A stretch of 64,000 nucleotides of DNA from Thiohalospira halophila DSM 15071 (GTDB taxonomy: Bacteria; Pseudomonadota; Gammaproteobacteria; Thiohalospirales; Thiohalospiraceae): contig NZ_FOMJ01000001.1 in NCBI RefSeq assembly GCF_900112605.1, positions 24,577 through 88,576 on the forward strand, read 5' to 3'. How positions within the stretch are numbered: position 1 is the stretch's first letter; the number at the start of each line of letters is the position of its first letter. Shown piece after piece: positions 29,200 to 53,398 of this stretch. Under the pieces are notes generated by a model. It was not told where the DNA came from and searched no databases. It worked only from the letters and a program-made list of their open reading frames with translations. The translations under genes were made by a program, and so were the position numbers.

Positions 29200-29490
29200 A
29201 TGCGCCTCGACCTACCTCGAACGCTGTCCAGCCAGGGCCTCCCCCGCGTCCTGATTGCCATCTCGCTCCTGATAACCACCTCCACGGCCACCGCTGAGGC
29301 TTCAACGCCCAAGTCCAACCCGGACGATGACCGCGGCCTCGCCTCCGTTATAGAAACCATCGTGGGCGGGGCGGCTTCCGGCGTCGAGGCCGCCCGGGAG
29401 TATGCGGCGCTGTTACTCGTCGGGGCCGCGCGGGACGGGCGCTTCGGTGAAGGCCGAGTCGGGGATCCGGAGGGGCCGGCAGACCGATGA
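29200..29490 (+). CDS. Small exported protein, 96 aa
   Basis: Begins MRLDLPRTLSSQGLPRVLIAI with GGAGA upstream; a signal peptide of ~32 residues ending TATAEA is likely. The mature part has SVIETIVGGAASGVEAAREYAALLLVG, possibly a membrane-active helix. It overlaps the diguanylate cyclase start by 4 nt, so the two are co-translated. Function unknown; it could be a periplasmic partner of the cyclase. Confidence 0.55.
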   Translation: MRLDLPRTLSSQGLPRVLIAISLLITTSTATAEASTPKSNPDDDRGLASVIETIVGGAASGVEAAREYAALLLVGAARDGRFGEGRVGDPEGPADR

Positions 29491-30623
29491 AATACCTGCG
29501 TCGGACGTTCGTGGGGGCGGTCGGGCAAGCCTGGCGCGGACTGGCCGCCGAGCTGGCGCCGGCGGACCCGGTGTCGGGGTTCTCTCAATGGCGGGCCGGG
29601 CAGCTGTTGCGACGAGTGCGGCTACTGGCCGTGCTGCTGGCGGGTGTCGTCGCCGGTGGTGTGGTGCTGGATTGGCTGTTGCTGCCATCGGGCATCGCCG
29701 GCTGGACCGCCGTCCTTCGAGTCGGGACCGCCGGCCTGCTGCTGGCAATTGCCCGAGCGGCCTACCGCCACGAGGGGCTGCATACCGCACACGGCTTACT
29801 GGGCGCTGCCATCGGGGTGCCGCTGGTCGTGCACGTGATCGGGGTGGCCCTGGCTCTCGGGGTGGCGCCGACGGCCACCGTGCAACTCATCTACCTGCTC
29901 CCGCCCCTGGCGGTGCTCGCGGTCATCAGTCCGTTCCCGGTAACGCTCCGGGAGGGCCTGGCGCTCCAGGCCCCGATCCATCTCGCGCTCTGGATCGGGG
30001 CCGGCCTGGCCGCACCTGCGCTCGTGGTGCCGGTGTCGCTGGCGGGTCTGCTGGTCGGGGCTGCGGCGCTGTGGTCCCAGCACGTGCAGCTGCGCACCCT
30101 CCTTCACTACACGCGGGCCTTGTCCGTGGATCCGCTGACCCAGCTGGCGAATCGACGCCAGATCGACCGGCAGCTCCAGCAGACCCAACGGCCGCTGTCG
30201 GTACTTCTTATCGACATCGACTACTTCAAGTCCATCAACGACACCCACGGGCACGCGGTGGGGGACGAGGTTCTCCAGCACGTCGCGGACGTGCTGCGCA
30301 CCGTGGTCCGGCATACCGATGCCGTGCACCCCTACTCGGCAGGAGGGTGCCCGCATGAGGTCGGGCGCTGGGGCGGGGAGGAGTTCATCGTCATTGCCGC
30401 CGATACCTCCCTGCCGGGGGCTTGCGCCATGGCCGAGCGTCTCCGCGAGACCGTGGAGCGGACCCTGGTCGCCAGCGAGGCCATCACGGTGTCCGTGACG
30501 GTCTCCATCGGGGTCGCCGAATGTGCTCCGGACGAGGAGGCACAGGCGACGATCTGCCGGGCGGATGCGGCCCTGTATCAGGCCAAGGACAGCGGGCGGA
30601 ACCGAGTCGAGGCCGCGGCCTGA
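29487..30623 (+). CDS. Membrane-bound diguanylate cyclase (GGDEF)
   Basis: 378 residues. About six membrane segments fill residues 45-210. The GGDEF domain starts at DPLTQLANRRQID and has LLIDIDYFKSINDTHGHAVGDEVL, GRWGGEEFIV (active-site GGEEF) and a normal C-terminus (RADAALYQAKDSGRNRV). All catalytic residues are present, so it should make c-di-GMP. An inhibitory-site-like RHTD occurs, but 17 residues instead of 5 separate it from GGEEF because of an insert (HPYSAGGCPHEV). Diguanylate cyclases are known on SXT-type ICEs. It lies just before the traL operon and shares its promoter box type. Confidence 0.92.
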   Translation: MKYLRRTFVGAVGQAWRGLAAELAPADPVSGFSQWRAGQLLRRVRLLAVLLAGVVAGGVVLDWLLLPSGIAGWTAVLRVGTAGLLLAIARAAYRHEGLHTAHGLLGAAIGVPLVVHVIGVALALGVAPTATVQLIYLLPPLAVLAVISPFPVTLREGLALQAPIHLALWIGAGLAAPALVVPVSLAGLLVGAAALWSQHVQLRTLLHYTRALSVDPLTQLANRRQIDRQLQQTQRPLSVLLIDIDYFKSINDTHGHAVGDEVLQHVADVLRTVVRHTDAVHPYSAGGCPHEVGRWGGEEFIVIAADTSLPGACAMAERLRETVERTLVASEAITVSVTVSIGVAECAPDEEAQATICRADAALYQAKDSGRNRVEAAA

Positions 30624-31025: not shown

Positions 31026-31613
31026 ATGGATCTGAAGGCACTCCTCAAGACCTGGGCCGGCACGCGGGCCGAGAACCAACTGGCCCGCTGGACGCTACCG
31101 GGGCTGTCGGTGGCGACGGCGCTGCTGGCCGGTCACGCCCTGACCCACGAGCCGACCGTGGTACTGGAGCCCCCGACGCCGCTGGAAGAGCGCACGGCCG
31201 TGTCCCGGACCGACGCGGGCGAGCCGTACATGCTGTCCTGGGGGCTCTACTTCGCGCAGCTGCTCGGCAATATCCACCGCGGCAACGCCGACACCCTGAT
31301 GTCCTTCCTGGACCTCTACATCACCGCCCAGAGCGCGCCCGTCGTGCGCGACTCCATCGCCGATCAGATCGCCCGGATCCGGGATGAGGAGGCCACCGTC
31401 TCCTTCAGCCCGGAGAACCTGACCTATTTCGAGGACGAGGGCGTGGTGGCGGTGACCGGCACCCAGACGCTCACGCCCAAGCGCGGTGAGGTGAAGCGCA
31501 TGGACTGGACCTACGAGTTCGAGATCGGGATCGAGCGGTACAAGCCGCAGCTGCTCGACCTGGATTCCTACCAGGGGCCGATCAAGGAGCGGAATCAGGA
31601 GCGAGATCAATGA
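31026..31613 (+). CDS. traE: TraE, inner-membrane T4SS protein (VirB5/TraE-like)
   Basis: 195 residues. An N-terminal uncleaved membrane segment (LARWTLPGLSVATALLAGHAL) anchors a periplasmic domain with ENLTYFEDEGVVAVTGTQTL and a C-terminal RMDWTYEFEIGIERYKPQL. This matches TraE of F-type systems, required for pilus assembly. Its stop overlaps the traK start (ATGA). Confidence 0.88.
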   Translation: MDLKALLKTWAGTRAENQLARWTLPGLSVATALLAGHALTHEPTVVLEPPTPLEERTAVSRTDAGEPYMLSWGLYFAQLLGNIHRGNADTLMSFLDLYITAQSAPVVRDSIADQIARIRDEEATVSFSPENLTYFEDEGVVAVTGTQTLTPKRGEVKRMDWTYEFEIGIERYKPQLLDLDSYQGPIKERNQERDQ

Positions 31614-32656
31614 TGCGATGGCGACACTGCGCCGCGGCGGTGGCCGCGGTCATGGCCGCCCCCGGGGCACTGGCACAGGCCACCGGGGACCAGGGCGCGA
31701 GCAACGGGATCCCCGGCGTGCCGGTGTCCGTGACCGACCCTCGCAGCGGCTCGGCGGTTGCAGCCGACGCCGAGGGCGATACCGGTTCCGCGGCTCCCGC
31801 CGCCGAATCCGGTGGCCCGGAGGCCGATGGGGCTCCACCGCCGGCCGAGCAGGACCAGGCGGTGCAGGCAGCCCGGGCGTCCGGCCCGGACACGGAGGCC
31901 AGCGCCGCCAAGGACCGCCGGGAGCTCACGGTGGAGCCCGGGGCGAACCAGCTCATGGTGATCTCCCAGGGCCACCCCAACCGGATCATCGCCCCCTGGC
32001 CGGACCCCGAGGTCCGCAGCGCCCACGAGGCCGAGATCGAAGTGGTGGGGCGCGTCATCTACGTGACCACCGCGCAGTCGGCGCCCATCACCCTCTACGT
32101 GACCGATGGCCACAACGAGCAGCGGGCGCTGTCGCTCACGCTCGTTCCCCGTCGGGTCCCGCCGCGCGAGTACAGCGTCAGCATTGCGGGGATGGAGTCC
32201 ATGGCGTCCATGGTGCAGCCGGACAAGGCCGGCACCTGGGAGCGGAGCAACCCGCTGCGCGCGAGCGTGACGAAGGCCCTCTCGCAGGCGGCCAAGGGCG
32301 AGCTGCCGGCCGGCTACGGGATGCAGGACGGGGTGTCCCCGGATGCCATGCCCATCCATTGCGACTGGGACGGCAGCGAGGACATCCAGATGGGGACGGG
32401 ACAGCGCCTGGAGGGCCGCAACCTCATCGTCTGGGTGGCGCCGCTGCACAACGGATCCGACGAACCCATCGAGGTGCGGGGGCCGGAGTGCTACCACCGC
32501 GGGATCCTGGCCGTCTCCTCCTACCCCCGGGCGGCGCTGAAGCCTGGCGAGGAGACCGAGCTCTACCTCGTTGAGCGTCGAGCCGGGACTCCGAGCGGCA
32601 ACGAGCGTCCGAGCGTGCTGGGCCGCGGCGCCCCGGAGGAGGGCGAGGATGATTGA
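31610..32656 (+). CDS. traK: TraK, secretin-like outer-membrane component
   Basis: 348 residues. A signal peptide (MMRWRHCAAAVAAVMAAPGALA) is followed by a variable A/G/E/D-rich region (about 25-110). A VirB9/TraK-type domain then has NQLMVISQGHPNRIIAPW, GRVIYVTTAQSAPITLYVTDG and LTLVPRRVPPREYSV. With TraB and TraV it forms the envelope-spanning core. The N-terminal linker is longer than in F TraK (242 aa). Overlap with traB is 8 nt. Confidence 0.9.
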   Translation: MMRWRHCAAAVAAVMAAPGALAQATGDQGASNGIPGVPVSVTDPRSGSAVAADAEGDTGSAAPAAESGGPEADGAPPPAEQDQAVQAARASGPDTEASAAKDRRELTVEPGANQLMVISQGHPNRIIAPWPDPEVRSAHEAEIEVVGRVIYVTTAQSAPITLYVTDGHNEQRALSLTLVPRRVPPREYSVSIAGMESMASMVQPDKAGTWERSNPLRASVTKALSQAAKGELPAGYGMQDGVSPDAMPIHCDWDGSEDIQMGTGQRLEGRNLIVWVAPLHNGSDEPIEVRGPECYHRGILAVSSYPRAALKPGEETELYLVERRAGTPSGNERPSVLGRGAPEEGEDD

Positions 32657-33977
32657 GGCGGCCAAGCAGCGATTCCGCGCCCTCGATCCGAAGCTGCAGT
32701 GGCGGCTGGCCCTGGGCAGCCTGGCCGTGGTGGGGCTGGGGATCCTCTGGATCTTCGTCGCCAACGAGCCGACCGACCGCGGGCAGGAGGTCCGGGAGGA
32801 GCGCGAATCCGTCCAGCTGACCAGCGATGACTTCAGCGGCCTGGAGCTGGATGCCCTCGACAGCCGCGTGGATGGCCTGGAGGAAAACTCCCAGTCCATT
32901 GAGCAGCGCCTGGAAGAGTTGAGCCAGCAGCTGGAGCAGCAGCGCCGGGAGGAATCCCAGGCCGAAGATCCGCAGCCGGATCCGGAGGTCATGGAGCGGC
33001 TGAACAACCTGGAGGAGGCCACGCGCGCCATCGGCGAAATGGCGGCGGAAGGCCGGGATCCGGGCGGCAACCAGGCGGCCCCGGCGCCCCGGGAATCGCA
33101 TGCGGGCGAGACGCAGGGCTCGGCTTCGGGGGGTTCCGAGCGGCCCGAGCCCGGCCAGGAAGTGGAGGTGGACGAGGGCCGGGTGTGGCAGGACCTGCCC
33201 GAGCCGGTGCGCCAGACGACGGGGGAGGGCGACGGGACGGCCGATGGCGAGGACGGCCAGTCGGTCCAGGTCGGTGCGCTGCAGACCTACGGCGGGACCT
33301 CCGCGTCCGAGCAGGACGAAGAAGAGGCGGCGTTCGCCCATCTGCCGGCGGGCTCCATCCTCTCCGGCGAGCTACTGGCCGGCCTGGATGCACCGACCAG
33401 CCAGGCGGCCCAGAGCGAACCCTTCCCGGCACTCATCCGGGTCAACAAGGACGCCATCCTGCCGAACCGGTACCGGGCGGACGTGCGTGAGTGCTTCATC
33501 ATCGCCGAAGCCTACGGCGATCTCTCCTCCGAGCGGGCCTACATGCGCGGTAACACCATCAGCTGCGTGCGCCACGACAAGTCCGTGGTGGAGAAGCGGA
33601 TGCCCCTGTACGTCGTCGGCGAGGACGGCAAGGCGGGCATGCGGGGTCGGCTGGTCTCCAAGCAGGGCCAGGTCCTGACCCGCGCCATGATGGCCGGCTT
33701 CCTGGAGGGCGTGGCCGGGGCCTTCAACGTCGAGCGCGTCCCCAGTCTCAACCTCGAAGGCGGCCAGGACAGCGCCGAGTGGGAGGACATGATGGGCAAG
33801 GAGGCCGCGCAGAGTGGCGTGGCCACCGGTGCCAGCCGGGCCATGGACCGCCTCGCCCAGTTCTACATCGACATGGCGCAGAGCATGTTCCCGGTCATCG
33901 AGATTGCCGCCGGCCGTCAGGTGGACCTGATCGTCACACGGGGCCAGACCCTGGAGCCGAGCGGCCAGGGCGAGTAG
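32649..33977 (+). CDS. traB: TraB, VirB10-like core channel protein
   Basis: 442 residues from ATG 32649. An N-terminal cytoplasmic stub and one membrane helix (RLALGSLAVVGLGILWIFVA, about 18-37) are followed by a long coiled coil (about 60-115) with E and Q repeats, and a linker. The VirB10/TrbI-type beta-barrel domain carries HLPAGSILSGELLAGLDAP, PFPALIRVNKDAILPN and ERAYMRGNTISCVRHDK. It spans the inner membrane to the outer-membrane TraK-TraV ring. Confidence 0.93.
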   Translation: MIEAAKQRFRALDPKLQWRLALGSLAVVGLGILWIFVANEPTDRGQEVREERESVQLTSDDFSGLELDALDSRVDGLEENSQSIEQRLEELSQQLEQQRREESQAEDPQPDPEVMERLNNLEEATRAIGEMAAEGRDPGGNQAAPAPRESHAGETQGSASGGSERPEPGQEVEVDEGRVWQDLPEPVRQTTGEGDGTADGEDGQSVQVGALQTYGGTSASEQDEEEAAFAHLPAGSILSGELLAGLDAPTSQAAQSEPFPALIRVNKDAILPNRYRADVRECFIIAEAYGDLSSERAYMRGNTISCVRHDKSVVEKRMPLYVVGEDGKAGMRGRLVSKQGQVLTRAMMAGFLEGVAGAFNVERVPSLNLEGGQDSAEWEDMMGKEAAQSGVATGASRAMDRLAQFYIDMAQSMFPVIEIAAGRQVDLIVTRGQTLEPSGQGE

Positions 33978-35040: not shown

Positions 35041-37509
35041 ATGCTGGAGAAGTTGCTGAAGCCGTCGTCGAGCCGTTACCGGGAGGAAGCCCCTGCCGGT
35101 AGCCGGCCGGCTGCGGAGCTATTCCCGGAGCTGGCCTACAGCCCCCGGGACCGGCTCTTCTTCCTGGAGGATGGCCACCTGGCGTTCTCGTATCTCTGTG
35201 CGCCGCGCACCGGGGTGTCCGAGTCGGACGCGGAGAGCCTGCAGGGCCTGCTCAACCAGGACTGGCCGGCCGGCGGGATGATGCAGATCGTCCACTGGGC
35301 GTCGCCGGACATCGAGCCGCACCTTCAGGCCGCCCTGTCCCTGCGGGACGAAGCCACCGGCGTGCTTCGCGAGGTCATCGAACGCCGGGCCGATTTCCTG
35401 CGCGGCGGGTTGCACGAGGCCCTCGGGGACCCTTCGGCATCCAAGCTGCGCAACCACTACATCCTCGTCACGGGCAAGGTGCCCTGCGAGGCCGAGCCCT
35501 CGGATCCGGAGATCGACAACGTCGTCCGGCTGCGCCGGTCCGTGGGGCAGGCCCTGGCCAGTATCGACATGCACCCGATCCCCATGGACGCCGGCATGCA
35601 CATCCGGCTGATGGGCTCGATCCTCAACTGGCAGGACGGGGCGCGCTGGAAGGAGAGCACCCCGTCCCAGCTCTATGACCGGAACGAGTGGATCCGGGAT
35701 CAGCTGGTGGACATCGGCAACCGGATCACCGCCGACAAGGAGGGGCTGCGCCTGGGGGACCCGGAGAAGCCGGACGCGCACGTGCGCATGCTCAGCCCCA
35801 AGCAGTACCCCGAGCGCGTCGTGATGGGTCTGGCCGGCCTCTTCGTGGGCAAGACGGCCTACGGCACCCGGGGGCTGCACGAGCACTTCATGCTGACCAT
35901 GAACCTCTACTTCCCCGACGCCGAGAACCACCGGGGGCAGATGGAGAAGCTGCGCAACTGGAACCTCCGGCAGGCCCAGGGGAAGATGATCAACTTCCTG
36001 CCGACCCTGGCCCGGCGCAAGTACGACTTCGACGCCCTGTTCGAGGCCCTGGATGACGGCGACCGGCCGGTGCGCATGACGATGTCGCTGGCGCTGTTCG
36101 ACGAATCCGAAGAGCGCGTGGAGGCCGCGGTCTCCAACGCCCGCACCTACTACCGCGAGCTGGGCTTTCAGCTGATGGAGGACCGCTGGTTCCTGCGGCC
36201 CCTCTTTCTCAACGCCCTGCCGCTCGGGATGGATGGCGACGCCATCCAGATGCTGGGTCGCTACAAGACGATGGGCACCCGCCACGTCGTGCGGATGCTG
36301 CCCATCATCTCCGACTGGCGGGGCAGCGGCACCCAGACCATGCAGTTCGTCTCCCGGGGCGGGCAGCTGATGAATCTCTGCCTGTACGACTCGGACACCA
36401 ACTACAACGCCTGCGTGGCTGCCCAGTCCGGCGCCGGCAAGAGCTTCTTCACCAACGAAGTGCTCTGCTCTTACCTCTCGCAGGGCGACCGGGCGTGGGT
36501 TATCGACGTGGGGCGCTCCTACGAGAAGACCGCGGACGTGCTCGGCGGGCAGTTCATGGTCTTCTCCGACGAGGCCGACATCCAGCTCAACCCCTTCCCG
36601 CTGGTCCAGGACTACAAGGACGAGGAGGACGCGCTGGTGGGCCTGCTCACGGCCATGGCCTCGGACCAGGAGATGCTCAGCGACATCCAGACCTCGGGGC
36701 TCAAGCGGGTCCTCGGGGGCGCCTGGAAGCAGCACGGTCAGGACCTGACGGTGGACCGGCTGGTGGAGCTGTTGCTGGCCGACGACGACACCCGGGTCCA
36801 GGACGTGGGCAAGCGGATGTTCGCGTTCACCTCGGACGGTGGCTACGGCCACTACTTCAACCGGGGCAACAACATCGACCTCTCCAACCCCTTCATGGTC
36901 CTGGAGCTGGAAGAGCTCAAGGGGCGCAAGCACCTCCAGCGGGTGGTGCTGCTCCAGCTCATCTACCAGATCCAGCAGGAGATGTACCTCTCCGAGAACC
37001 CGCAGCAGAAGAAGATCCTCATCATCGACGAGGCGTGGGACCTGCTCGCCGAGCCCTCGGTGGCCCGGTTCATCGAGGGCGGTTACCGGCGGTTCCGCAA
37101 GTACAACGGCGCCGCCATGGTCATCACGCAGTCCATCAACGACCTCTACAACTCGCCGACCGGCGTGGCCATCGCCGAGAACAGCGCCAACATGTTCCTG
37201 CTCAACCAGAAGGGGTCGAGCATCGACGCCATCAAGCGCGAGGGGCGGCTGCCGCTGTCGGACGCCGGCTACGACATCCTGAAGACCGTGCACACCCAGA
37301 AGGGGAAGTATTCGGAAATCTTCTTCCTCACCGAGACCAAGGGGGCCGGCATCGGGCGGCTCATCGGTAGCCGGTTCATCCAGCTCATGTACTCCACCGC
37401 GCCCGACGACAAGGCCGCCATCAGGAAGTACCAGAGCCGGGGCTACCGCTTCGAGGAGGCCATCAACTGCGTCATCGCGGAGGAAGAGCGGCAGAAGGAG
37501 GCGATATGA
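35041..37509 (+). CDS. traC: TraC, VirB4-like T4SS ATPase
   Basis: 822 residues. The N-terminal TraC_F domain (FLEDGHLAFSYLCAPRTGVS; YFPDAENHRGQMEKLRNWNLR) leads to a AAA+ domain with Walker A CVAAQSGAGKSFF near residue 460-472 and Walker B KILIIDEAWDLLAEP near 657-671. A typical VIAENSANMFLLNQKGSS follows. The length is close to other TraC proteins. It powers pilus extension and retraction and overlaps the next start by 4 nt. Confidence 0.95.
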   Translation: MLEKLLKPSSSRYREEAPAGSRPAAELFPELAYSPRDRLFFLEDGHLAFSYLCAPRTGVSESDAESLQGLLNQDWPAGGMMQIVHWASPDIEPHLQAALSLRDEATGVLREVIERRADFLRGGLHEALGDPSASKLRNHYILVTGKVPCEAEPSDPEIDNVVRLRRSVGQALASIDMHPIPMDAGMHIRLMGSILNWQDGARWKESTPSQLYDRNEWIRDQLVDIGNRITADKEGLRLGDPEKPDAHVRMLSPKQYPERVVMGLAGLFVGKTAYGTRGLHEHFMLTMNLYFPDAENHRGQMEKLRNWNLRQAQGKMINFLPTLARRKYDFDALFEALDDGDRPVRMTMSLALFDESEERVEAAVSNARTYYRELGFQLMEDRWFLRPLFLNALPLGMDGDAIQMLGRYKTMGTRHVVRMLPIISDWRGSGTQTMQFVSRGGQLMNLCLYDSDTNYNACVAAQSGAGKSFFTNEVLCSYLSQGDRAWVIDVGRSYEKTADVLGGQFMVFSDEADIQLNPFPLVQDYKDEEDALVGLLTAMASDQEMLSDIQTSGLKRVLGGAWKQHGQDLTVDRLVELLLADDDTRVQDVGKRMFAFTSDGGYGHYFNRGNNIDLSNPFMVLELEELKGRKHLQRVVLLQLIYQIQQEMYLSENPQQKKILIIDEAWDLLAEPSVARFIEGGYRRFRKYNGAAMVITQSINDLYNSPTGVAIAENSANMFLLNQKGSSIDAIKREGRLPLSDAGYDILKTVHTQKGKYSEIFFLTETKGAGIGRLIGSRFIQLMYSTAPDDKAAIRKYQSRGYRFEEAINCVIAEEERQKEAI

Positions 37510-38976: not shown

Positions 38977-41349
38977 ATGCCGGTTGTCCGCGTAGGACTG
39001 CGAGTGCTGACCGCGGCGATGCTCGGGGGGCTGGCCGGGGGCGCATTTGCTGCCCCTGGCGGGGCCCAGGGTGGCACCTGTGGTGGAGAGGCGCTGGCAA
39101 CGGGGGAATGCGAAGCGGCCAACCTGATTTCTCAGGAGGATTTCGACCGTGTCCACGCGATCCTGGAGCAGACCGATGCCGAGGGCGGCAATGTGCAGGA
39201 GCGTATTCGAGCCGAGCGGGAGGAAGCAGGGTCGCTCGCTGAATCGGCGCGAGGGGGCCTGGAAGAGCTCCGCATCAAGGACCTGCCTGGACGTATCGCC
39301 GAGTTCGCGGATCAGGGCGATCTAGAAGGGGGGAATTTGCCGTTTTCGCCGGTTGCGGAGGACGGAAAAGCCGGTGTGACGCACACGCTCCTGCTATCGG
39401 AGAGCATCCCTGCCAGTCAGCGCAAGACGCTGCTGAAAGAAGCGGCAAAGGCGCAGGAAGCGCGCCCCGACAGCGAGGTGGCGGTCTATTTCCAGGGCCC
39501 GCTGGTCGATAAGGACATCGACGAGACCGTTCGGCAGTTCTCGCGCTGGCTGAAGGAGGCCGACCTGGAGCACTCGGAAGTCGCGCTCGGGATCAACAAC
39601 AAGGTATTCGACCGGCACGGCGTGGAGGCTGTCCCGACTTGGGTGTCCGAGCGCGGCGGCGAGCTGGTGGCGAAGGCGTCCGGTCTCGGGGATCTCGATT
39701 ACGTTCTGGAGCAGGCCGAGGAGGCCGATGAGCCCGACATAGGCCGGAGAGGCAATGTTTGGTCGGTCGCCGAGCCCCATTTCGTTGAGGAGTACGTGAA
39801 GACCCGGATCCAGGACTGGATTGAGGAGCAGGGCGGAAAGGAAGCGATCATTGAACGGGGCCGCCAGGCTTTCTGGGAGCATCAGGAGTTCCACGAGTTC
39901 GAGTTGGAGCCGGCCGAGGCTCGCAACAGCTACGTCGTGGACCCGTCCGTCACGGTCACCGAGGACATCACGGTCCCCGGGAAGGACCGGTTAATCGCTC
40001 GCAAGGGGCAGCGCGTAAACCCCCTTTCTGCCGTCCCCTGGACAAGGCCCCTACTGATCTTCGATGGAAGCCGCCCCCAGGAAGTCGAATGGGCATCCGA
40101 CTGGCTTGAAGAAAATCGCTCACAAAACCCGATACTGGTCACATCCCGGATCGATACAGTAGGCGATGGATGGGCCAATTACCGAGACCTAACGAACACC
40201 CTTGGCCACCACGTTTATCTTTTACCGAAAAACCTACGGACCCGCCTTGGCATTCAGAAAACGCCGAGCGTGATTCGCGGCACGGGTGATCGAAAACTTC
40301 GTGTTACTGAGTTTCCCGTAGAAAAGTCTCTCGGTGGATTTTTATTACCTGATTCTGTAACCGGATGGATGGGGCGCCTGTACGCCTCCTTTCCTTCTTT
40401 TATTTCCCCGGCAAATGCGCAAGTTTCGGATGCAGCTTGTCCGAATGGGAGCGTATTTTCGCGGATGTTTTCCGATGTTTGCTGGGACTGTCATATTCCC
40501 TTTTCGGTGGCGGGGCAGGATTTAGGTGGAGATGCGCCGAATGGGTTTAATCGGTCGCCGGTTTGTATGTGCGAACCGCCTTTCCCGGGCGTAACCATGG
40601 GCGCGTGGTTGCCATCAAGGTTGGTCGAGTTGGTCCGCACTCCGGGATGCTCGCCGACGATGTTTGGAAGCAGCCTGACTTTCGGGGGGCCGGGGATGGG
40701 AATGCAAGGGGGCAGCAGAGAGCGAGCATCCGACGGTAATTCGGGTGCCAAGACATTTTACCACTACCACTATTGGGCATTCCCGGCCGGAGAGATCCTG
40801 GGAACATTAACCGGATGCGTTTCTAAGACGAGTTTGGACATGATGTACGTATCCGAGATGGATCCTACCTGGAATGAAGATCAGATTTCTGTTCTTACGA
40901 CCCCAGAAGCCGCCCTTTTTGCGAACCCGATTGCACAGTCCGCATGCGTGGGTGAGGCCATGGCAGTCGGAGCTGGCGTTGAGCCTATTGAAACATTGTA
41001 TTGGTGTGCAGGCGCTTGGGGTTCCATGTATCCATTTACGGGTAACCTGGCTTACCAATCCAGCCCTATTTCCGACACCTCCCTGCTGGCAGTCCGGAGC
41101 CTGGCTGCGCTTCATAGGCGTGGATTGGCGCGGGACTTCAAGGGAAATCCCTGTGACGGGGTTTTTGAGCCCATGATCCCGAAAAACTCCTACCGGTGGT
41201 CTCAATACTACCCGGTTCCGGAAAGCAACAATACGCATTGGACCGGCCAGGCACCTGTGTATTGGGGGCCGCACCGAACAATTCCCGGTCGGGGTGAGGA
41301 TTATATTCACATGCTCTGGCGATGGACGGACTGCTGCCTGGAGAGTTAA
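38977..41349 (+). CDS. traWU: TrbC-TraW-TraU fusion, pilus assembly and DNA transfer protein
   Basis: 790 residues in one uninterrupted frame. A signal peptide (about 1-27) is followed by a TrbC-like thioredoxin-fold domain (about 105-245; VYFQGPLVDKDIDETVRQF, NNKVFDRHGVEAVPTWV). A TraW domain (about 310-450) has VVDPSVTVTEDITVPGKDR, GQRVNPLSAVPWTRPLLIFDG and ILVTSRIDT. A full TraU domain (about 475-790) has CPNGSVFSRMFSDVCWDC, RSPVCMCEPPFPGVTMGAWL and many cysteines. TrbC-TraW fusions are known in R27/SXT; TraU is normally separate. A degenerate export-like segment (LYASFPSFISPANAQ) remains at the W-U junction, as if the traU signal peptide had been read through. GC falls in the TraU part. 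Confidence 0.9.
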   Translation: MPVVRVGLRVLTAAMLGGLAGGAFAAPGGAQGGTCGGEALATGECEAANLISQEDFDRVHAILEQTDAEGGNVQERIRAEREEAGSLAESARGGLEELRIKDLPGRIAEFADQGDLEGGNLPFSPVAEDGKAGVTHTLLLSESIPASQRKTLLKEAAKAQEARPDSEVAVYFQGPLVDKDIDETVRQFSRWLKEADLEHSEVALGINNKVFDRHGVEAVPTWVSERGGELVAKASGLGDLDYVLEQAEEADEPDIGRRGNVWSVAEPHFVEEYVKTRIQDWIEEQGGKEAIIERGRQAFWEHQEFHEFELEPAEARNSYVVDPSVTVTEDITVPGKDRLIARKGQRVNPLSAVPWTRPLLIFDGSRPQEVEWASDWLEENRSQNPILVTSRIDTVGDGWANYRDLTNTLGHHVYLLPKNLRTRLGIQKTPSVIRGTGDRKLRVTEFPVEKSLGGFLLPDSVTGWMGRLYASFPSFISPANAQVSDAACPNGSVFSRMFSDVCWDCHIPFSVAGQDLGGDAPNGFNRSPVCMCEPPFPGVTMGAWLPSRLVELVRTPGCSPTMFGSSLTFGGPGMGMQGGSRERASDGNSGAKTFYHYHYWAFPAGEILGTLTGCVSKTSLDMMYVSEMDPTWNEDQISVLTTPEAALFANPIAQSACVGEAMAVGAGVEPIETLYWCAGAWGSMYPFTGNLAYQSSPISDTSLLAVRSLAALHRRGLARDFKGNPCDGVFEPMIPKNSYRWSQYYPVPESNNTHWTGQAPVYWGPHRTIPGRGEDYIHMLWRWTDCCLES

Positions 41350-41351
41350 AT

Positions 41352-44300
41352 ATGAAGCGGTGGGGTGCTTTGGTTTTTCTCGTGGGGATGGTTGGCAGCG
41401 TGCTTGCGGCCGATTATCAGCAATTCAAGGATGAAGGCGAAGCCCTTAATGAGGACCTTCCGTTCAGTGTTTCAGAGGATGGGGTCTCGGTCGATAACAT
41501 GGAGGGCTCCCTTGAAAGTGATTCCTTCGAGGACGCCGGGGGTGAGAACGACCAAGAGGCAAAAGAGCAGTTTGAGGAGGCCCATTCGGCGTTCGGCGAC
41601 GATGATGCGCTTTTGAATTATGGTGACAATCAGGCTCAGATGATGCTCGAAGCCGAGGAAGGCGAGTCAGCGCAGTCGGATGCGTTTAAGACGATTTATA
41701 ACACGACGGCCAAGCCCGGCGGGCAAATGGAGGTGGAGACGCTGGGGTGCGAGGTGGAGCGGAAACCCGAAGACCTGGAGCTGGAAACGTATTGCTTCAC
41801 AAATGATACGATTGGTCACGTTCGATGGATCAATTCGCACTGGTGGTTCTATTGCACCGGTGGTGCAGATGGAACCGAAGTCCGCATTGAAGGCGGAGAC
41901 GCGAACGGTCCCGGAACCGGCCCCAATGCTACTGGAAGAAAGGACTATCCCCAGGCACTCAATCGTGACCGTACCTTCCACTATAGCGAAGGGATGAAGC
42001 AGGCAGATAATCCGATTTTCGAGCAGGACTGCAACGGGGACAAGTGCACCGTAACCTGGACGAACCCTCCAAGCTCAGCTAAGAAGACCTCGTTTTCCTA
42101 TTCGCCGCGTTATCGGATCGACCCGGATTCGGATGTCATCTATCGGGATGAGGAGTGCGAGGATGGGTTTGAGGGACCTCTGGGGTCTACATGCGAGGTG
42201 GATGACTCGACGTGGGAATGCGTGGATGCGGGCGCGAAGGAGATCAGCAGCGCCGGCGTGAGCGGCACCATCAATGCCGACCCGAGCATCGTGCAACGGG
42301 ACCTCGACCCGCTCTATCCCGGCGATCCCCAGAACCCGGTGTGCTGGAAGGCGAATGCCGTAGCCGTTTGCCAGTTGGACGTGAATAACTGTGTCGAGGT
42401 CGAACAGAGTGCGGAGATGACCTATCAGTGCCCGGATGGCATGGAGGCTGATCCGGCGACAGAGAGCTGTAGGGAGCCGGCGAATGCAGATCGCTCGTGC
42501 CGGATGGGGTACGAGCTACATCAAGGGAGCTGCCGGAAGCAGGCGTACTACAAGCCGCAGTGCCCCGAGACCGCAGGGTATTCCGAGGACCTTGGGAATG
42601 CGGCCTTTGTCGCTGAGCGAGATGGGTACTGCCTCGCCGATACCGAGCAGTGGCCGGACCATGACGCCCTCTGCCCGGCGGGTGGCACCTACCAGGGGGA
42701 GTACGACGGCGCCGGTCAGTGCCATATCGAGCCGGACTGGCCCTCTGCGTGTCCCGACGGGACGAGCGAGAATGGCGCGGGGGAGTGCACCGGTGGTCTC
42801 CTGGAGGGGCAGGGCGATGTAAACGGCTTCGAGGCCCACTGCCCGGTGGGCGAGTACGACGGGAATGGCACCTGCCGGACGACGCCCGGCGCCAGCGCGC
42901 GCCTGACCCCCGAGGACGGCCTGGTGCACCTGGCCAGCCGGACCATCCCGGCGGCCGGGATCCAGCTCGCCCAGGCCAATGTGGACTACGAGTGTCCCGA
43001 GGGGACGCTGGAGGGGGACCAGTGTGTGCAGCCGGCGGGATCATCGACAGAGCAGGAGGAGATGCAAGGGGGCGTCCCAAGCCGCGTCGATTTTTGTGGA
43101 CATGACCCGGATGGCGCGTGTGAGGGTGCTGGCTACGATAAAAGTATTGCCTGTGATGATTGGTATAACCCCTATACTGGCATTACCCAAATCGAACTGA
43201 CTTGCGAGAAAACGACGTATTCCTGCCCCTCCGGCTGGAGCCTTTCCGGCACGCAGTGTGTGACCGATGCCGAGGAGGTTCAGCTCTGTCCCGATGGCAC
43301 CTCGCCGGACGGGGATGGGGGCTGCGTCACGGATGTCGATGGCTACTCCCCCCTGTGTCCTGATGGGACGGAGTATGAGGGTGGCGGCGATCCCTATGCC
43401 GCTGATCCGGGCCACTGCGTTGCCACTCTGGATACCTCGAAGCTGTGCGAAGCGCCTGCGGCCTGGGATGCCGAGCAGCGAGCCTGCGTGTACGACGCCG
43501 ACGAGGAGGCGCTGTGCCCGGACCAGACGAGCTATGACCCGGAGCGCGACGAGTGCACCGCTGAAGCGGACTTCGAGCCGCAGTGCCCGGAGGATGCCTC
43601 CTTCTTGAACGGCCACTGCCATATCGATCCGGCGGTCGAGTATAGCTGCGATCAGGGCAGCCTTGAGGGTGAGGACTGCACTGTGCCGGCCGAGGAGGAC
43701 GCCTCGTGCCCGGCCGGCATGACCTACGACGGCCAGGGTGGATGCGGTTATCCGACCGGCGATTGCTCTCCCTCGGTCGATACCAGCATGACTGAGGAGG
43801 AGCTGCAGGAGCAGTTTGGGAATTGCAGTACGGTTCAGAAGGAAGAGGAGATTCGGCAAGAAGAGGTTGAGCCCTCAACCCAAGCCTGTATCAAGGACCA
43901 GCATCCCACCTGGCCGGGCTGCAGCATGCAGCGCAACGTCGAGATCGTAAGCGCGGTGGAAGACGGAAAGATCCTCGATGTCAGCCCCCACGATAACCAC
44001 GGCACGATCATCGGGGATGTCCGTATCGACCAGGAGAGCGGGGTGAACTTCGGCGGGCCGGAGAGTTTCGTGGAGGCACCCGCCAATCCAGGGGGGGTCG
44101 AGGACTTCAGCGAGACGGGGATCACCGTGTCCACTTGGGTGAAGTGGGGCGGCCTGTCCGGCAACGTCTCGGGGATATGGGGTGGAACCGGGCCTAACAG
44201 TGCCAACAACCACTTCGAGTTTAACCGGCTTCAGCCTGGCGACCTGCGGGTTCGCTTCAACAAGTTCGGGGGCAAGAGCAGCGACAACTACTTCCTGGAG

Positions 44301-45857
44301 CCGGGCATCATGGAGGAGGGTGAGTGGGTACACGTAGCGGCGACCTACGACCCGGAAACCTGCACGGGAACACTCTACAAGAACGGCAAGGAGGTGAAAT
44401 CTCGCCAGGAGTGCTCGGGTCCAATCGAGACGAGTAGCTGGCACCGGATTGGAAACTCGTCGGGGTCGGTTTCGGCGGACCGCGGATGGGATGGTCACCT
44501 GCATGATTTTACGCTGTGGAAGGATGATTTGAGCGAATCGGAGATTCAGGATGTCATGGACGGCGACATTGACAATTCGGATGATCGGTTAGTGGGTTTC
44601 TGGCTCTTTAATGACAAAAAGGTCATCGAAGATTCCTGGGATAATCCCGAGTGCATGCGCTACTTTGAGGAGCTGGAAGCCTACCCGCAGGGATGCAATA
44701 TGGACTACGAGACGGATTACAGTGGTTCCGGGTGCGCCGTCATTGATGGCACTGAGGTTTGTCCTGGAGATGGCCTGTATTACCAGCTTCAACCGTTGCC
44801 AGGTGTCGGCCAGAGGCTGGCGACCAGCGCCTCTTTTGATGAAATGGTTTGCGATTATCAGGGGGAGTGCTCCACGGTTGAAGGGGAAGCGGTTTGCATG
44901 GGGGGGACAAACAACGATTGCGAGAAGTTTGAGGAAGACCCTTCGTGTGAGATCGTAAAAGAGCAGTGTAATTCTGAGGAGAGCCACGACCGGCTCCCGT
45001 CTTGGTGCTCATCCAAGGAAGTTGAATACGCCTGCGATAGCAACGAGGACTCGGAACCGGAGACCCGGACAACGGAAGTTCTGGAGTGTGAGGGGCAGGA
45101 GTATCAGTGCGCTGATGGGACCTGCTTCTCTCACGACGAGGAGAAGAACGAGGGCTTCGGTGAATGGGTGGCACACTCATCCGCGATGAAGGCTATGGAA
45201 GGCGATATGCAGTGCGAAGATGAGAATGACCCGTCCTCCTGCACGGTCTTTGAGGGCGAGGAGCGGACTTGCCGTCGAGCGGCCGGCGAAGCCTCTTCGC
45301 TTTGGGATTGCTGTGAGACCCCCAAGAAGGACAAGATTGATGCCGATAGTTTCTACGAAGGTCTGGTACAGGGAACTAAAGAGACAGTGCGCTCGATCAT
45401 GGAGCAGGGTATCTTAGGGTATATCTCCTCAATAGAGAATATCATCAAGCTCGTTGCGCGCTGCAATGAAGACGAGAACATGCTTGCCATTGAGCGCCCG
45501 ATGGATCAAACCCACAAGATCGGGCGCGAATGCGGTAAGCGCATTTCTGTGGTTTTTGGGAAAATGTGTGTCCGTCGGGATCATACCTACTGCTCGTTCA
45601 ATAGCCCTGTATCTCGCATCATGCAGGAAGAGGCACGAAAGCAATTAGGGATTGGCTGGGGAAGTACCAGCAATCCGAATTGTCGCGGACTGACTATGGA
45701 AGAAATCCAAGAGGTTGATTGGTCGGAGATTGATACCTCGGAGTGGGAGAAGCTCATTAAGGAAAACAACGCGATGCCTACTGCGGATTCGGTGGATGTG
45801 CCTTCGGAGGAGTCGCTTAATCCGTCCGCGCCCAGTAGAACCGAAAACCGGGAGTAA
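41352..45857 (+). CDS. traN: Very large TraN with Cys-rich modules and a LamG-like domain
   Basis: 1501 residues from ATG 41352, 2 nt after the traWU stop. The signal peptide is MKRWGALVFLVGMVGSVLAA. Residues about 330-860 hold a long series of short CPDGT...C modules. Residues about 860-1085 form a LamG/concanavalin-like jelly-roll (NHGTIIGDVRIDQESGVNFGG, ITVSTWVKWGG, GEWVHVAATYDPETCTGTLY, DGHLHDFTLWKDDLSESEI). The C-terminal TraN core has CMRYFEELEAYPQGC and CVRRDHTYCSFNSPVSRIM then QLGIGW and NPNCRGLTMEEIQ. TraN is the outer-membrane adhesin that stabilises mating pairs; F and IncC versions are about 600-1000 residues. The LamG domain probably governs recipient recognition (inference). It needs DsbC-type folding. 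Confidence 0.9.
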   Translation: MKRWGALVFLVGMVGSVLAADYQQFKDEGEALNEDLPFSVSEDGVSVDNMEGSLESDSFEDAGGENDQEAKEQFEEAHSAFGDDDALLNYGDNQAQMMLEAEEGESAQSDAFKTIYNTTAKPGGQMEVETLGCEVERKPEDLELETYCFTNDTIGHVRWINSHWWFYCTGGADGTEVRIEGGDANGPGTGPNATGRKDYPQALNRDRTFHYSEGMKQADNPIFEQDCNGDKCTVTWTNPPSSAKKTSFSYSPRYRIDPDSDVIYRDEECEDGFEGPLGSTCEVDDSTWECVDAGAKEISSAGVSGTINADPSIVQRDLDPLYPGDPQNPVCWKANAVAVCQLDVNNCVEVEQSAEMTYQCPDGMEADPATESCREPANADRSCRMGYELHQGSCRKQAYYKPQCPETAGYSEDLGNAAFVAERDGYCLADTEQWPDHDALCPAGGTYQGEYDGAGQCHIEPDWPSACPDGTSENGAGECTGGLLEGQGDVNGFEAHCPVGEYDGNGTCRTTPGASARLTPEDGLVHLASRTIPAAGIQLAQANVDYECPEGTLEGDQCVQPAGSSTEQEEMQGGVPSRVDFCGHDPDGACEGAGYDKSIACDDWYNPYTGITQIELTCEKTTYSCPSGWSLSGTQCVTDAEEVQLCPDGTSPDGDGGCVTDVDGYSPLCPDGTEYEGGGDPYAADPGHCVATLDTSKLCEAPAAWDAEQRACVYDADEEALCPDQTSYDPERDECTAEADFEPQCPEDASFLNGHCHIDPAVEYSCDQGSLEGEDCTVPAEEDASCPAGMTYDGQGGCGYPTGDCSPSVDTSMTEEELQEQFGNCSTVQKEEEIRQEEVEPSTQACIKDQHPTWPGCSMQRNVEIVSAVEDGKILDVSPHDNHGTIIGDVRIDQESGVNFGGPESFVEAPANPGGVEDFSETGITVSTWVKWGGLSGNVSGIWGGTGPNSANNHFEFNRLQPGDLRVRFNKFGGKSSDNYFLEPGIMEEGEWVHVAATYDPETCTGTLYKNGKEVKSRQECSGPIETSSWHRIGNSSGSVSADRGWDGHLHDFTLWKDDLSESEIQDVMDGDIDNSDDRLVGFWLFNDKKVIEDSWDNPECMRYFEELEAYPQGCNMDYETDYSGSGCAVIDGTEVCPGDGLYYQLQPLPGVGQRLATSASFDEMVCDYQGECSTVEGEAVCMGGTNNDCEKFEEDPSCEIVKEQCNSEESHDRLPSWCSSKEVEYACDSNEDSEPETRTTEVLECEGQEYQCADGTCFSHDEEKNEGFGEWVAHSSAMKAMEGDMQCEDENDPSSCTVFEGEERTCRRAAGEASSLWDCCETPKKDKIDADSFYEGLVQGTKETVRSIMEQGILGYISSIENIIKLVARCNEDENMLAIERPMDQTHKIGRECGKRISVVFGKMCVRRDHTYCSFNSPVSRIMQEEARKQLGIGWGSTSNPNCRGLTMEEIQEVDWSEIDTSEWEKLIKENNAMPTADSVDVPSEESLNPSAPSRTENRE

Positions 45858-45865
45858 CGAGAGCA

Positions 45866-46302
45866 TGGGGTTCCGGGTTTTATTGGTTCTGGTGGCGAGC
45901 CTTTTTTGGGCGGAGCTGAGTCATTCGAGCGCGCTGGAAGATGCGACTTACCTTGAACCGGAAGAAGACGCCAATGGTGAACTGACGTTGTACACCTTCT
46001 GGTCGGTCACCTGCCCCATCTGCCACCAGATGAAGAAGGACATGGCCGAGGTGGAGGGAATCGACTGGCGGATGATCCCGGTGGGGTTCTCGGACGAGGG
46101 GTGGCAGTGGGCGGTAGAGGCCGTCGGCCTTGATGCGGCGGGGGACAACCTGCGTCTGGCCCGGGAGCTTGAGATCCGCGGGACGCCCACATCGTTCATC
46201 CAGGACGGTGACACCCTCTACCGGATCCGGGGCGGCCGGCCGGCGTCCTTCTGGGAGGAGCTGCCGGATCGCTTCGAGCAGATGCAGTCGGGGGCCCAGT
46301 AG
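45866..46302 (+). CDS. Periplasmic thioredoxin-like protein (TrbB/TraF type)
   Basis: 145 residues starting MGFRVLLVLVASLFWAELSH (signal peptide). The fold has LTLYTFWSVTCPICHQMKKD with the CPIC redox site near residue 50, and RGTPTSFIQDGDTLYRIRGG with the cis-proline. It matches thioredoxin-fold proteins of F-type transfer systems. It follows traN by 8 nt, so a chaperone or disulfide role for the TraN cysteines is likely. Confidence 0.82.
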
Positions 46303-46308
46303 CCCCGT

Positions 46309-47325
46309 CTATCGAGCGCCCGGGTAGGGGGTGTGCCGCATCCCCGAGGCCCGCTTCTTTGCCCGCTCGCCCCGCCGGTCGTAGCCGGAGGTCGTGTCCG
46401 GCTTCGCGTGGCCCATGAGCTTCTGGACGGTGGCCAGGTCCGCGCCGGCGTCGAGGAGGTCCCCGCCGTAGGTGCGCCGCAGATCGTGCGGAGTGAAGGG
46501 TGGCGTGCCGGCTTCCTGCTGGCGCCGGCGGAGGATCTGGTAGATAGCCTGGTCCGTCAGGTGGCGACCGTGGACCAGGTTGCCGCTCTTGCGCACGGCC
46601 ACCAGAAGCGGGCCCGAATCCCCACCGCGGATCGCGAGCCAGTCCTCGATGGCGGCGGCGGTGCCGTCGTCGGCGTACACCGTGCGCTCCTTGTTCCCCT
46701 TCCCGCGGACGATGATCCGCATCTCTTCCTGTTCCCAGTCCTCCACGGATAACCCGGCGATCTCCGCCCGGCGCAGCCCCAGCCCGTAGGCCAGGCCGAA
46801 GCAGGCGGCATCCCGGGCGCCGGCCGGCGAGGCGTCTTGGGCGCAGACCTCGAAGATCGCCCGGGCCTCGCCCACCGAGAGGGCCCGCCCCTTGGTGGCC
46901 CGGCTGCCGCGCACGGGCTCCAGGTCCACGGCGCGGTGGTAGGTCTCGCTGTCCACCAGGCCCAGCCGCCACGCCTCCTGCAGTACACCGCGGACGGCAG
47001 AGAGGTAGCGGTTGGCGGTCGCCGGACTGTAAAGCTCGGCGAAGTGCGTGCGTAGCGCCTGGGTATGCTCGTAGCGCAGTCGCTCCCAGGGCAGTGTCGC
47101 AGCGTCCACCTCGGACCCGGCCAGGAAGACGGCGGCGCGCTCCAGGGCCTGCTTCATCGAGCGCCGACTTCCGGGGGCGAGCCGGGCCAGGTAGACGGCG
47201 GCGGGATTCGACCCGGAGGCGGAGCCCGAATGGTGACTGATTCCCTTGTGGTTCGCGCGGGAATGGTGGGCCGGGGTCAAAGACCCTCCTCTCTGGGTGG
47301 GATTAGGTTCCGACTCCTCGATCAT
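46309..47325 (-). CDS. int: Tyrosine site-specific recombinase (integrase)
   Basis: About 338 residues if started at ATG 47325 (GAGG upstream); the frame is open to 47385. A core-binding domain (GSRRSMKQALERAAVFLAG; ATANRYLSAVRGVLQEAW) precedes the catalytic domain with LGLRRAEIAGL (Arg near 182), RGKGNKERTVYADDG (Lys near 207), FTPHDLRRTYGGDLLDAG (His, Arg near 277-281), LMGHAKPDTTSGYDRRG (His near 305, Tyr near 317). All six catalytic residues are present. It is more like XerC/D-type chromosomal or plasmid recombinases than the SXT integrase. It lies between traN and cargo and converges with the transfer operon, so it could serve integration, dimer resolution, or a nested element. Confidence 0.9.
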   Translation of the reverse strand: MIEESEPNPTQRGGSLTPAHHSRANHKGISHHSGSASGSNPAAVYLARLAPGSRRSMKQALERAAVFLAGSEVDAATLPWERLRYEHTQALRTHFAELYSPATANRYLSAVRGVLQEAWRLGLVDSETYHRAVDLEPVRGSRATKGRALSVGEARAIFEVCAQDASPAGARDAACFGLAYGLGLRRAEIAGLSVEDWEQEEMRIIVRGKGNKERTVYADDGTAAAIEDWLAIRGGDSGPLLVAVRKSGNLVHGRHLTDQAIYQILRRRQQEAGTPPFTPHDLRRTYGGDLLDAGADLATVQKLMGHAKPDTTSGYDRRGERAKKRASGMRHTPYPGAR

Positions 47326-47362
47326 GGTGATGCCTCGATATTGCTTTTGGGAACGGCCATTC

Positions 47363-47662
47363 TCATAAGTAATTAAATAACACACCTATGGAGTGGTTAT
47401 TCGTCCTTCTGCTTAGGGATTTGAAGTGGTGGCGCCCAATGCCTCCTGGAGATCGGAGGAGCTGGGAAGGTTGGTAGAAGCGGTGGACCTGGTACGAGTA
47501 AGTGCCCCACCGATGATGGCGGCAATCAGCAACGGCCTGCCACTCCAAGTCCGTCTTGCAGCACGAGAGGGCCCGGCGCAGCAGGTCCAGGTCTTCTGAC
47601 CAGCCCTCTACCTCCTCCTGCTTGTCCAGCTCCGCATCAATCTTCTCTTTCCGACTGGCCAT
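47363..47662 (-). CDS. Hypothetical small protein, 99 aa
   Basis: ATG 47662: MASRKEKIDAELDKQEEVEG, with a coiled-coil-like start, an LSCCKTDLEW motif and a basic C-terminus. A weak GGAG lies upstream. The 3' half falls in a lower-GC spacer before the integrase. Weakly supported. Confidence 0.35.
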   Translation of the reverse strand: MASRKEKIDAELDKQEEVEGWSEDLDLLRRALSCCKTDLEWQAVADCRHHRWGTYSYQVHRFYQPSQLLRSPGGIGRHHFKSLSRRTNNHSIGVLFNYL

Positions 47663-51685: not shown

Positions 51686-53398
51686 GTGAAACTCACGAAT
51701 TCACCGGACAACTTTCCAGCCGACGCAGACCACGAGTCTGCGAGCGACGTGGATGTCTCCACACCGGGGAAGTCAATCCGCGAGTTACCAAGCTCCAATG
51801 GTCAGTCATCTGAGGAGCCGATGGGCGGATTCTTTACCCGCCGTTGGATTGTTGAATGGATGCTTGACCTCATCGGTTACACGCAAGATCAACCTCTCAA
51901 TGACCGCGTTCTCCTTGAACCATGTTGCGGTGGCGGGGCTTTCTTGCTCCCCGCCCTGGAGCGGTTACTTGCGGCCTGCCGAAGATCACATTATCCGGTT
52001 GTCGACTGCGAGCATGCCTTCTGTGCCATGGATCTCCACGAGCCATCGGTGGAACTCACTCGTTTGTCCGTGATTAATAGGCTCCAAGAAGAGGGTCTCG
52101 ACGAGAGGGAGGCTCAGCGCCTTGCAGCCAGCTGGATCGAGGTCGGCGACTTCTTGCTCGACGAGAGGTCCGCGTTTGCTGACTATGTCATCGGGAATCC
52201 ACCGTATGTCCGGTTGGAAAATGTTCCCGAAGATTTGCAGAAGACGTATCGCGCGAAATTGAGAACAATGCGCGGACGTGCTGACCTTTACGTAGGATTT
52301 TACGAGCGCGCTTTAGAAGCGCTCAAACCCGAGGCTGACCTCGGATTTATTTGCGCGGACCGTTGGATGCGAAATAGTTATGGAGCGCAACTGAGGCGCA
52401 TGATAACGGAAGGTCCGTACGCCGTTGATACAATCGTGAAGTTGCACGGCGTGGACTGTTTTGAGGTGGACGTATCGGCATATCCAGCGATTACCGTGAT
52501 GCGGCACGGGGTGCAAGAGGGTGTTGCGGTTCTTGATGCGGAAGAAGGCTTCGGCGAACGTGATGTACCTAAAGCCATGCAGAGTCTCAAAACAGGAGTC
52601 GCATCGGGAAATTTCCGCTACGGTCATGTGGAACGATGGTTTGGGGATGATGTATGGCCGGAAGGGACTCCGGAGGAACTAGAGAGGATTCAGTTATACG
52701 AACAAAAGCACGAGCCTTTACAGGATGAAAGGGGCCGCACACGCGTCGGAATTGGTGTGGCAACAGGGGCTGACGGCATATTAGTGACCGACGATCCGAA
52801 GCTAGTTGAAGAGGAACGACTACTTCCATTGGTAATGCCGAGCCATATCGCCGATGGGACACTGCGCTGGGAGCCCAAAAAATATCTTGTGAATCCTTGG
52901 AATGACGACGGGTTGGTCGATCTGGATGAGTTCCCACGGTTCCGCCAATACGTGGAGGAGCACAAAAGACAGCTGGCGTCTCGACATATAGCAAAAAAAG
53001 CGCCGGACCGCTGGTATAAAACAATTGATCGAGTCCATCCATGGTTAGCGGCTACGCCTAAAATTCTTCTTGCCGACATGAAGGCGAAAGTGACGCCTGT
53101 CGTTGACCCTGGTGGGCTTTACCCTCATCACAACCTTTATTGGATAATTTCACAACAATGGGATCTCGACGCATTAGCCGGTTTGCTCCTCTCTGAGCAG
53201 GCAGAGTTATTCATTAGGTCCTATTGCGTCAAGATGAGAGGCGGAACTCTTCGGATGCAGGCGCAGTATCTAAGGCGTATTCGTGTACCGTCGAAAGAAA
53301 AACTTGGTCAGGAGGAAATAGAAGCCCTCCGAATGGCCTACCACACGTACGACAGAGAAGAAGCAACCAAAATTGCGAGGGAGCTTTATGAACAGTGA
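51686..53398 (+). CDS. Adenine-N6 DNA methyltransferase of a type II R-M system
   Basis: 570 residues from GTG 51686 (weak ribosome binding site; a later start such as the MGGFF methionine is possible). The SAM motif LLEPCCGGGAFLLPALE and catalytic motif IGNPPYVRLENV (about residue 168-179) mark the gamma-type N6-adenine methylases of the M.PaeR7I/Eco57I group. A C-terminal target-recognition region has RGGTLRMQAQYLRRI. It overlaps the endonuclease gene by 11 nt. It protects the element against the partner enzyme, whose likely site is CTCGAG. Confidence 0.85.
   Translation: MKLTNSPDNFPADADHESASDVDVSTPGKSIRELPSSNGQSSEEPMGGFFTRRWIVEWMLDLIGYTQDQPLNDRVLLEPCCGGGAFLLPALERLLAACRRSHYPVVDCEHAFCAMDLHEPSVELTRLSVINRLQEEGLDEREAQRLAASWIEVGDFLLDERSAFADYVIGNPPYVRLENVPEDLQKTYRAKLRTMRGRADLYVGFYERALEALKPEADLGFICADRWMRNSYGAQLRRMITEGPYAVDTIVKLHGVDCFEVDVSAYPAITVMRHGVQEGVAVLDAEEGFGERDVPKAMQSLKTGVASGNFRYGHVERWFGDDVWPEGTPEELERIQLYEQKHEPLQDERGRTRVGIGVATGADGILVTDDPKLVEEERLLPLVMPSHIADGTLRWEPKKYLVNPWNDDGLVDLDEFPRFRQYVEEHKRQLASRHIAKKAPDRWYKTIDRVHPWLAATPKILLADMKAKVTPVVDPGGLYPHHNLYWIISQQWDLDALAGLLLSEQAELFIRSYCVKMRGGTLRMQAQYLRRIRVPSKEKLGQEEIEALRMAYHTYDREEATKIARELYEQ

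Follow-up and report, generated by a model that had tools for sequence, protein, structure and literature searches.

A LamG jelly-roll in the tip slot of a TraN conjugation protein from Thiohalospira halophila

The window analysed here is a 64,000-nt stretch of the forward strand of contig NZ_FOMJ01000001.1 from Thiohalospira halophila DSM 15071, and all coordinates are given in its own numbering. The genome, 2.69 Mb over 23 contigs, has a completeness of 99.99% and a contamination of 0.09%. The window carries an F-type (MOBH) conjugation system with the main transfer genes present, and traN lies directly downstream of traU as a member of the transfer operon. The features are:

22187-24709, + strand: relaxase, TraI_2 (MOBH type); PF07514, E 1.2e-65
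24553-26616, + strand: TraD-like coupling protein ORF; PF12696, E 7e-18, and PF10412
31026-31613, + strand: TraE; PF05309, E 9.5e-19
31610-32656, + strand: TraK; PF23536, E 7.7e-9
32571-33977, + strand: TraB/TrbI-like protein; PF03743, E 9.3e-34
35041-37509, + strand: TraC ATPase; PF11130, E 9e-69
38977-41349, + strand: TrbC-TraU, both domains in a single ORF; PF06834, E 5.6e-84, and PF09673, E 2e-6
41352-45857, + strand: traN, 1501 aa, ATG at 41352; PF06986, NCBIfam TraN models and position after traU
45865-46302, + strand: exported thioredoxin-like protein (CPICH), read from the ORF
46309-47385, - strand: tyrosine recombinase; PF00589, E 1.2e-30

TraH and TraG are found on the same contig upstream of the window. 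The TraD-like ORF overlaps that of the relaxase by its first codons, and its real start is probably later. The thioredoxin-like protein is plausibly an oxidative-folding partner of TraN. As a tyrosine recombinase follows the transfer locus, the latter is likely to be part of an integrative element; no tRNA was found within the 64-kb window. Also within the transfer locus is a diguanylate cyclase (GGDEF, E 6.6e-40) at 29487-30623, while an ORF at 51686-53398 with an NPPY motif, read by eye, is probably an N6-adenine DNA methyltransferase. No TraN relatives were found among 11 other genomes of the same order.

The 1501-residue protein is a TraN, as had been predicted from the sequence. Residues 1180-1448 match PF06986 (F_T4SS_TraN) with 114.4 bits against a cut-off of 23 (E 8.6e-33), and the only NCBIfam models to match the protein are TraN models, each under its cut-off. 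The cysteine columns that are invariant across 50 TraNs are all cysteine in this protein too, giving it the pattern of the TraN base. It would be expected to be displayed at the outer membrane with a role in mating-pair stabilisation. Its segments, where residue n begins at nucleotide 41352+3(n-1), are:

41352-41408, + strand: probable signal peptide, residues 1-19 (MKRWGALVFLVGMVGSVLA), read by eye
41409-42407, + strand: N-terminal segment, residues 20-352, no known domain
42408-43787, + strand: string of CP-x-G cysteine modules, residues 353-812, 35 Cys, read from the sequence
43788-43937, + strand: pre-tip block, residues 813-862 (EQFGNCS...C), weak profile match and alignment
43959-44603, + strand: LamG jelly-roll occupying the tip slot, residues 870-1084; PF13385, AlphaFold/Foldseek/VIA-align and LamG profile
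44361-44414, + strand: Cys1004 and Cys1021 of the LamG domain, from the sequence
44622-45218, + strand: post-tip block, residues 1091-1289, profile from 38 TraNs
44889-45695, + strand: F_T4SS_TraN domain, residues 1180-1448; PF06986

For the N-terminal segment of some 330 residues Pfam gave nothing at E <= 10; it is possibly a second surface domain.

The LamG domain is recognised by PF13385 (Laminin_G_3) at residues 917-1066, where the match scores 80.9 bits (cut-off 27.6) with an E-value of 1.4e-22. A LamG profile built in this analysis sets its extent at residues 870-1084; the first row of this profile is the LamG of the window itself, so the E-value of its own match is not independent. These bounds lie close to the residues, about 860-1085, at which a LamG/concanavalin jelly-roll had been proposed, and the motifs on which that proposal drew, VSTWVKW, WVHVAATYD, GTLYKNGKEV and FTLWKDDLSESEI, are all present in the sequence. 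The only two cysteines of the domain, Cys1004 and Cys1021, bracket the TLYKNGKEV hairpin, and it is possible that they form a disulfide across it.

The AlphaFold2 model of residues 858-1100, made from a 22-row alignment, is of moderate confidence, with a mean pLDDT of 64.6 and a pTM of 0.67; the core blocks lie between 60 and 90 and the ends below 50. Foldseek gave 429 matches to the PDB for this model at E <= 1e-3, and those listed are lectin-like jelly-roll proteins. On alignment with VIA-align the top row has a Z-score of 18.3, with the pentraxin PTX3 at 17.6 (rmsd 2.4 A over 170 residues) and a GH43 arabinanase domain at 17.5. The check by AlphaFold and Foldseek suggested with the original prediction has, therefore, found a jelly-roll. 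The top structural rows are mostly the lectin-like halves of clostridial neurotoxin receptor-binding domains, which reflects the many PDB entries for these proteins and the shared fold, and indicates neither kinship nor toxicity. Searching the PDB by sequence gave an S-layer-domain protein (E 0.0025) and pappalysin LamG domains. By profile and model, residues 870-1084 or thereabouts form a LamG domain with the two-sheet, concanavalin-like jelly-roll fold.

The tip of the IncA/C TraN has been placed at residues 230-360 of the RA1 protein (PMC13104618), and by alignment it is the stretch corresponding to these bounds that the LamG replaces. In an alignment with five long TraNs the domain is preceded by a pre-tip block (C...HVPEY..C) and followed by a post-tip block (W.PQSC...C..I.G..VCPGD), for both of which profiles were built from the tip flanks in 38 TraNs. 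Positions 2-200 of the post-tip profile align to residues 1091-1289 of TraN with an i-E of 1.1e-18, so that common TraN sequence resumes within about 7 residues of the end of the LamG; for a position taken at random in the 1501-aa protein, the chance of lying 25 residues or less from the post-tip start is about 3%. The pre-tip profile matches residues 816-848 weakly, with 2.4 bits and an E-value of 0.008 for a one-sequence search (Z=1). The C-terminal boundary of the LamG with the post-tip block is, thus, firm and the N-terminal boundary consistent but weak. As common TraN sequence resumes directly after it, the LamG takes the place of the IncA/C-type tip, which determines recipient specificity in the TraNs that have been studied. 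The original prediction had described it as an insertion; with the post-tip profile resuming at residue 1091, it instead replaces the tip.

The LamG is unrelated to the usual TraN tip, and the replacement is of a whole domain. When the 27 sequences of the common tip family were set against the LamG alignment, hhalign gave a probability of 1% and no meaningful alignment. A control model of the common tip is a confident beta-sandwich (pLDDT 86.2) of a different kind, and its top structural matches in the PDB are to other folds, with Z-scores of at most 7.3. The profiles of the two tip types (tip1 and tip2) and of the VWA domain did not match the LamG region of the window.

Across 84,980 species genomes (GTDB), scanning yielded 70 TraN loci, and those of their TraNs that were of usable length, together with four plasmid TraNs, were classified by the contents of the slot using profiles built in this analysis. 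The common tip is present in 31, the common tip with an RA1-type tip in 2, the RA1-type tip alone in 7, a VWA domain in 4 and VWA with an RA1-type tip in 1; the LamG is seen in the window protein only, and 21 have none of the profiled domains, some of these being short or truncated. In five Chromatiaceae TraNs (L049, L050, L056, L059 and L089) the slot is apparently empty or very short. VWA domains in the tip slot are found at loci L038 (3005-5797), L042 (2517-5216), L071, L086, L091 and L097 and in PLSDB sequences H131-H138. The VWA tip of a Halomonas TraN has 8 matches in PLSDB, all 8 annotated as traN, from Halomonas, Pseudomonas, Vibrio and Photobacterium; the literature searched gave no description of such TraNs. 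A Desulfobacterales TraN (L106, 2116-3756) has a polysaccharide-lyase jelly-roll (PF14099, E 4e-37) set between a probable signal peptide and a short TraN base. A Poseidonibacter TraN (L088, 3589-6387), also with a short base, has an N-terminal C-type lectin domain that includes the EPN motif, detected when the N-terminal stretch was scanned alone (PF00059, 26.4 bits against 22.6) and absent in the scan of the whole protein. The lyase-type and C-type lectin domains sit N-terminally in these short-base proteins, which does not imply equivalence to the slot. Judged from sequence, the tip slot itself is subject to domain exchange, among LamG, VWA, two beta-sandwich types and an apparently empty state. 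Pseudomonas TraNs of about 1120-1130 aa (L051, L066 and L086) have two different tip-like domains in tandem.

The cysteine-rich CPDGT modules had been expected to flank the LamG. This is so on the N-terminal side, where all the CP-x-G...C units of the protein are found (residues 353-812), but the C-terminal side is made up of the ordinary post-tip block and base. In PLSDB the cysteine string matches solely the TraNs of two Vibrio plasmids, of 1919 aa (L292, 314-6070) and 1625 aa (L293, 1130-6004), in which similar strings lie within the base, after the tip, whereas that of the window protein comes before it. A 1430-aa TraN of the same class (L286) also has a long CP-x-G cysteine string within its base. 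From these positions the string looks like a movable spacer of TraN, separate from the tip.

The window protein is the one LamG-bearing TraN found. No second example was found in PLSDB by tblastn, though more than 5000 plasmids there match the TraN base, nor in the 70 GTDB loci, nor in about 1060 further genomes, and none appeared in 398 genomes of the phylum or among the 49 other TraNs scanned with Pfam. Where LamG matches do occur elsewhere in genomes they are in other ORFs, and the stretches retrieved have no TraN motif. As tblastn is insensitive to a LamG at 25% identity, the rarity is less certain than the presence. No close donor of the LamG was found, and the viral contigs, scanned with a single protein, gave nothing; at least 80 phage loci with distant LamG domains were picked out by a DNA pattern coding for W-x-H-V-A-[AV]-T-Y-D and were used for alignment only. 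The open-access journal papers searched contain no report of a LamG, lectin or VWA tip in TraN, and a LamG at the tip position is new with respect to this literature.

The ligands of LamG and concanavalin-like domains are glycans or proteins, LamG domains having many kinds of partner, and the receptors known for TraN are outer-membrane proteins of the recipient, OmpA, OmpW, OmpK36 and OmpF. Consistent with the premise of the original prediction that the tip decides recipient specificity, tip swaps reverse specificity in the IncA/C and IncH TraNs, and in the TraN of pKpQIL a tip hairpin enters the OmpK36 pore (PMC13104618, PMC9246713). It would seem probable, then, that the window protein is a mating-pair-stabilisation adhesin of an F-type (MOBH) system in which the distal tip has been exchanged as a whole for a LamG jelly-roll. 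The LamG would most likely bind a molecule on the recipient surface, holding the mating pair together and setting which cells serve as recipients. The geometry of the tip, adhesion and recipient choice are taken here by analogy with the TraNs that have been studied. Because the LamG lies in the slot that decides specificity in those proteins, a receptor-binding role is the best reading, with a ligand, glycan or protein, that would differ from that of the usual tip.

An unlikely alternative is that the LamG binds the envelope or conjugation machine of the donor itself, serving in self-anchoring or assembly. The many kinds of partner that such domains have would allow this, and the exposed part of the protein could be the cysteine-rich N-terminal string itself. 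Against this, the LamG lies in the slot of the recipient-binding tip (PMC13104618) and, as the slot seems to be empty in the natural TraNs L049, L050, L056 and L059, it is probably dispensable for assembly. The existence of a single example, with no LamG TraN relative found in PLSDB, would suit a passive spacer or a relic of a decaying element with no binding function. However, the ORF is intact for 1501 codons, the core motifs of the LamG are retained, its acidity is like that of the rest of the protein (pI 4.5, the larger segments beside it having 4.05-4.42) and every transfer gene that was sought is there, and we consider this improbable too.

Two further explanations carry very little weight. 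The ordinary tip and the LamG are both all-beta and occupy the same place, which might suggest that the latter is a diverged beta-sandwich tip resembling LamG by chance, but this was rejected on the hhalign probability and the control fold of the usual tip; the Z-scores of 17-18 for the LamG model are to concanavalin-like folds, unlike those of the ordinary tip. Occurrence in only one genome might also be expected of an assembly chimera of two genes, which is highly improbable given a single open frame in which a TraN-like cysteine string precedes the LamG and TraN sequence follows it, in a nearly complete and scarcely contaminated genome that has just one TraN and one Laminin_G_3, both in this ORF.

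With recipient binding by the LamG as the preferred reading, a broader and more doubtful proposal is that the tip slot is a general socket for adhesive domains, and that surface glycans, and not only porins, act as recipient receptors for F-type systems. The slot, or the N-terminus in short-base TraNs, would on this proposal have been filled repeatedly, by LamG, a polysaccharide-lyase jelly-roll, a C-type lectin and VWA. Taken together with its VWA, lyase-like and C-type lectin counterparts, the LamG tip points to other classes of receptor, and suggests that specificity can change by exchange of a whole domain and not by loop variation alone. The identity of the tip domain could then let the recipient range be guessed for elements of unstudied hosts.

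The fold and core motifs of the TraN LamG recur in LamG proteins of bacteria and phages (PF13385), with about 16-30% identity, but the ones found are large proteins of cell surfaces or phages, and a TraN base was seen in none of them. Among conjugation proteins the IncA/C TraN-medium of RA1 is laid out alike, with pre-tip block, tip slot, post-tip block and C-terminal base in succession, and belongs likewise to a MOBH/MPF_F system in which the tip sets recipient specificity (PMC13104618). It differs in having about 900 aa compared with 1501, an unrelated beta-sandwich tip and no CPxG string before it; Xanthomonas TraNs of 1882 aa exist (PMC13104618). TraN-short, as in F, R100 and pKpQIL, is also a mating-pair-stabilisation adhesin with a variable tip and a cysteine-rich base, but is about 600 aa long with no LamG reported, and the tip of pKpQIL puts a hairpin into a porin (PMC9246713). 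The VWA-tip TraNs of Halomonas KO116 and of Pseudomonas, Vibrio and Photobacterium plasmids show whole-domain replacement in the same slot, with VWA in place of LamG. PilV, which varies through DNA shuffling, is a component of a type IV pilus and is unrelated to TraN as a protein. In common with the TraN tip, however, the PilV adhesins of IncI plasmids (TP114; PMC9045228) are plasmid-coded and provide an exchangeable module for recognition of the recipient.
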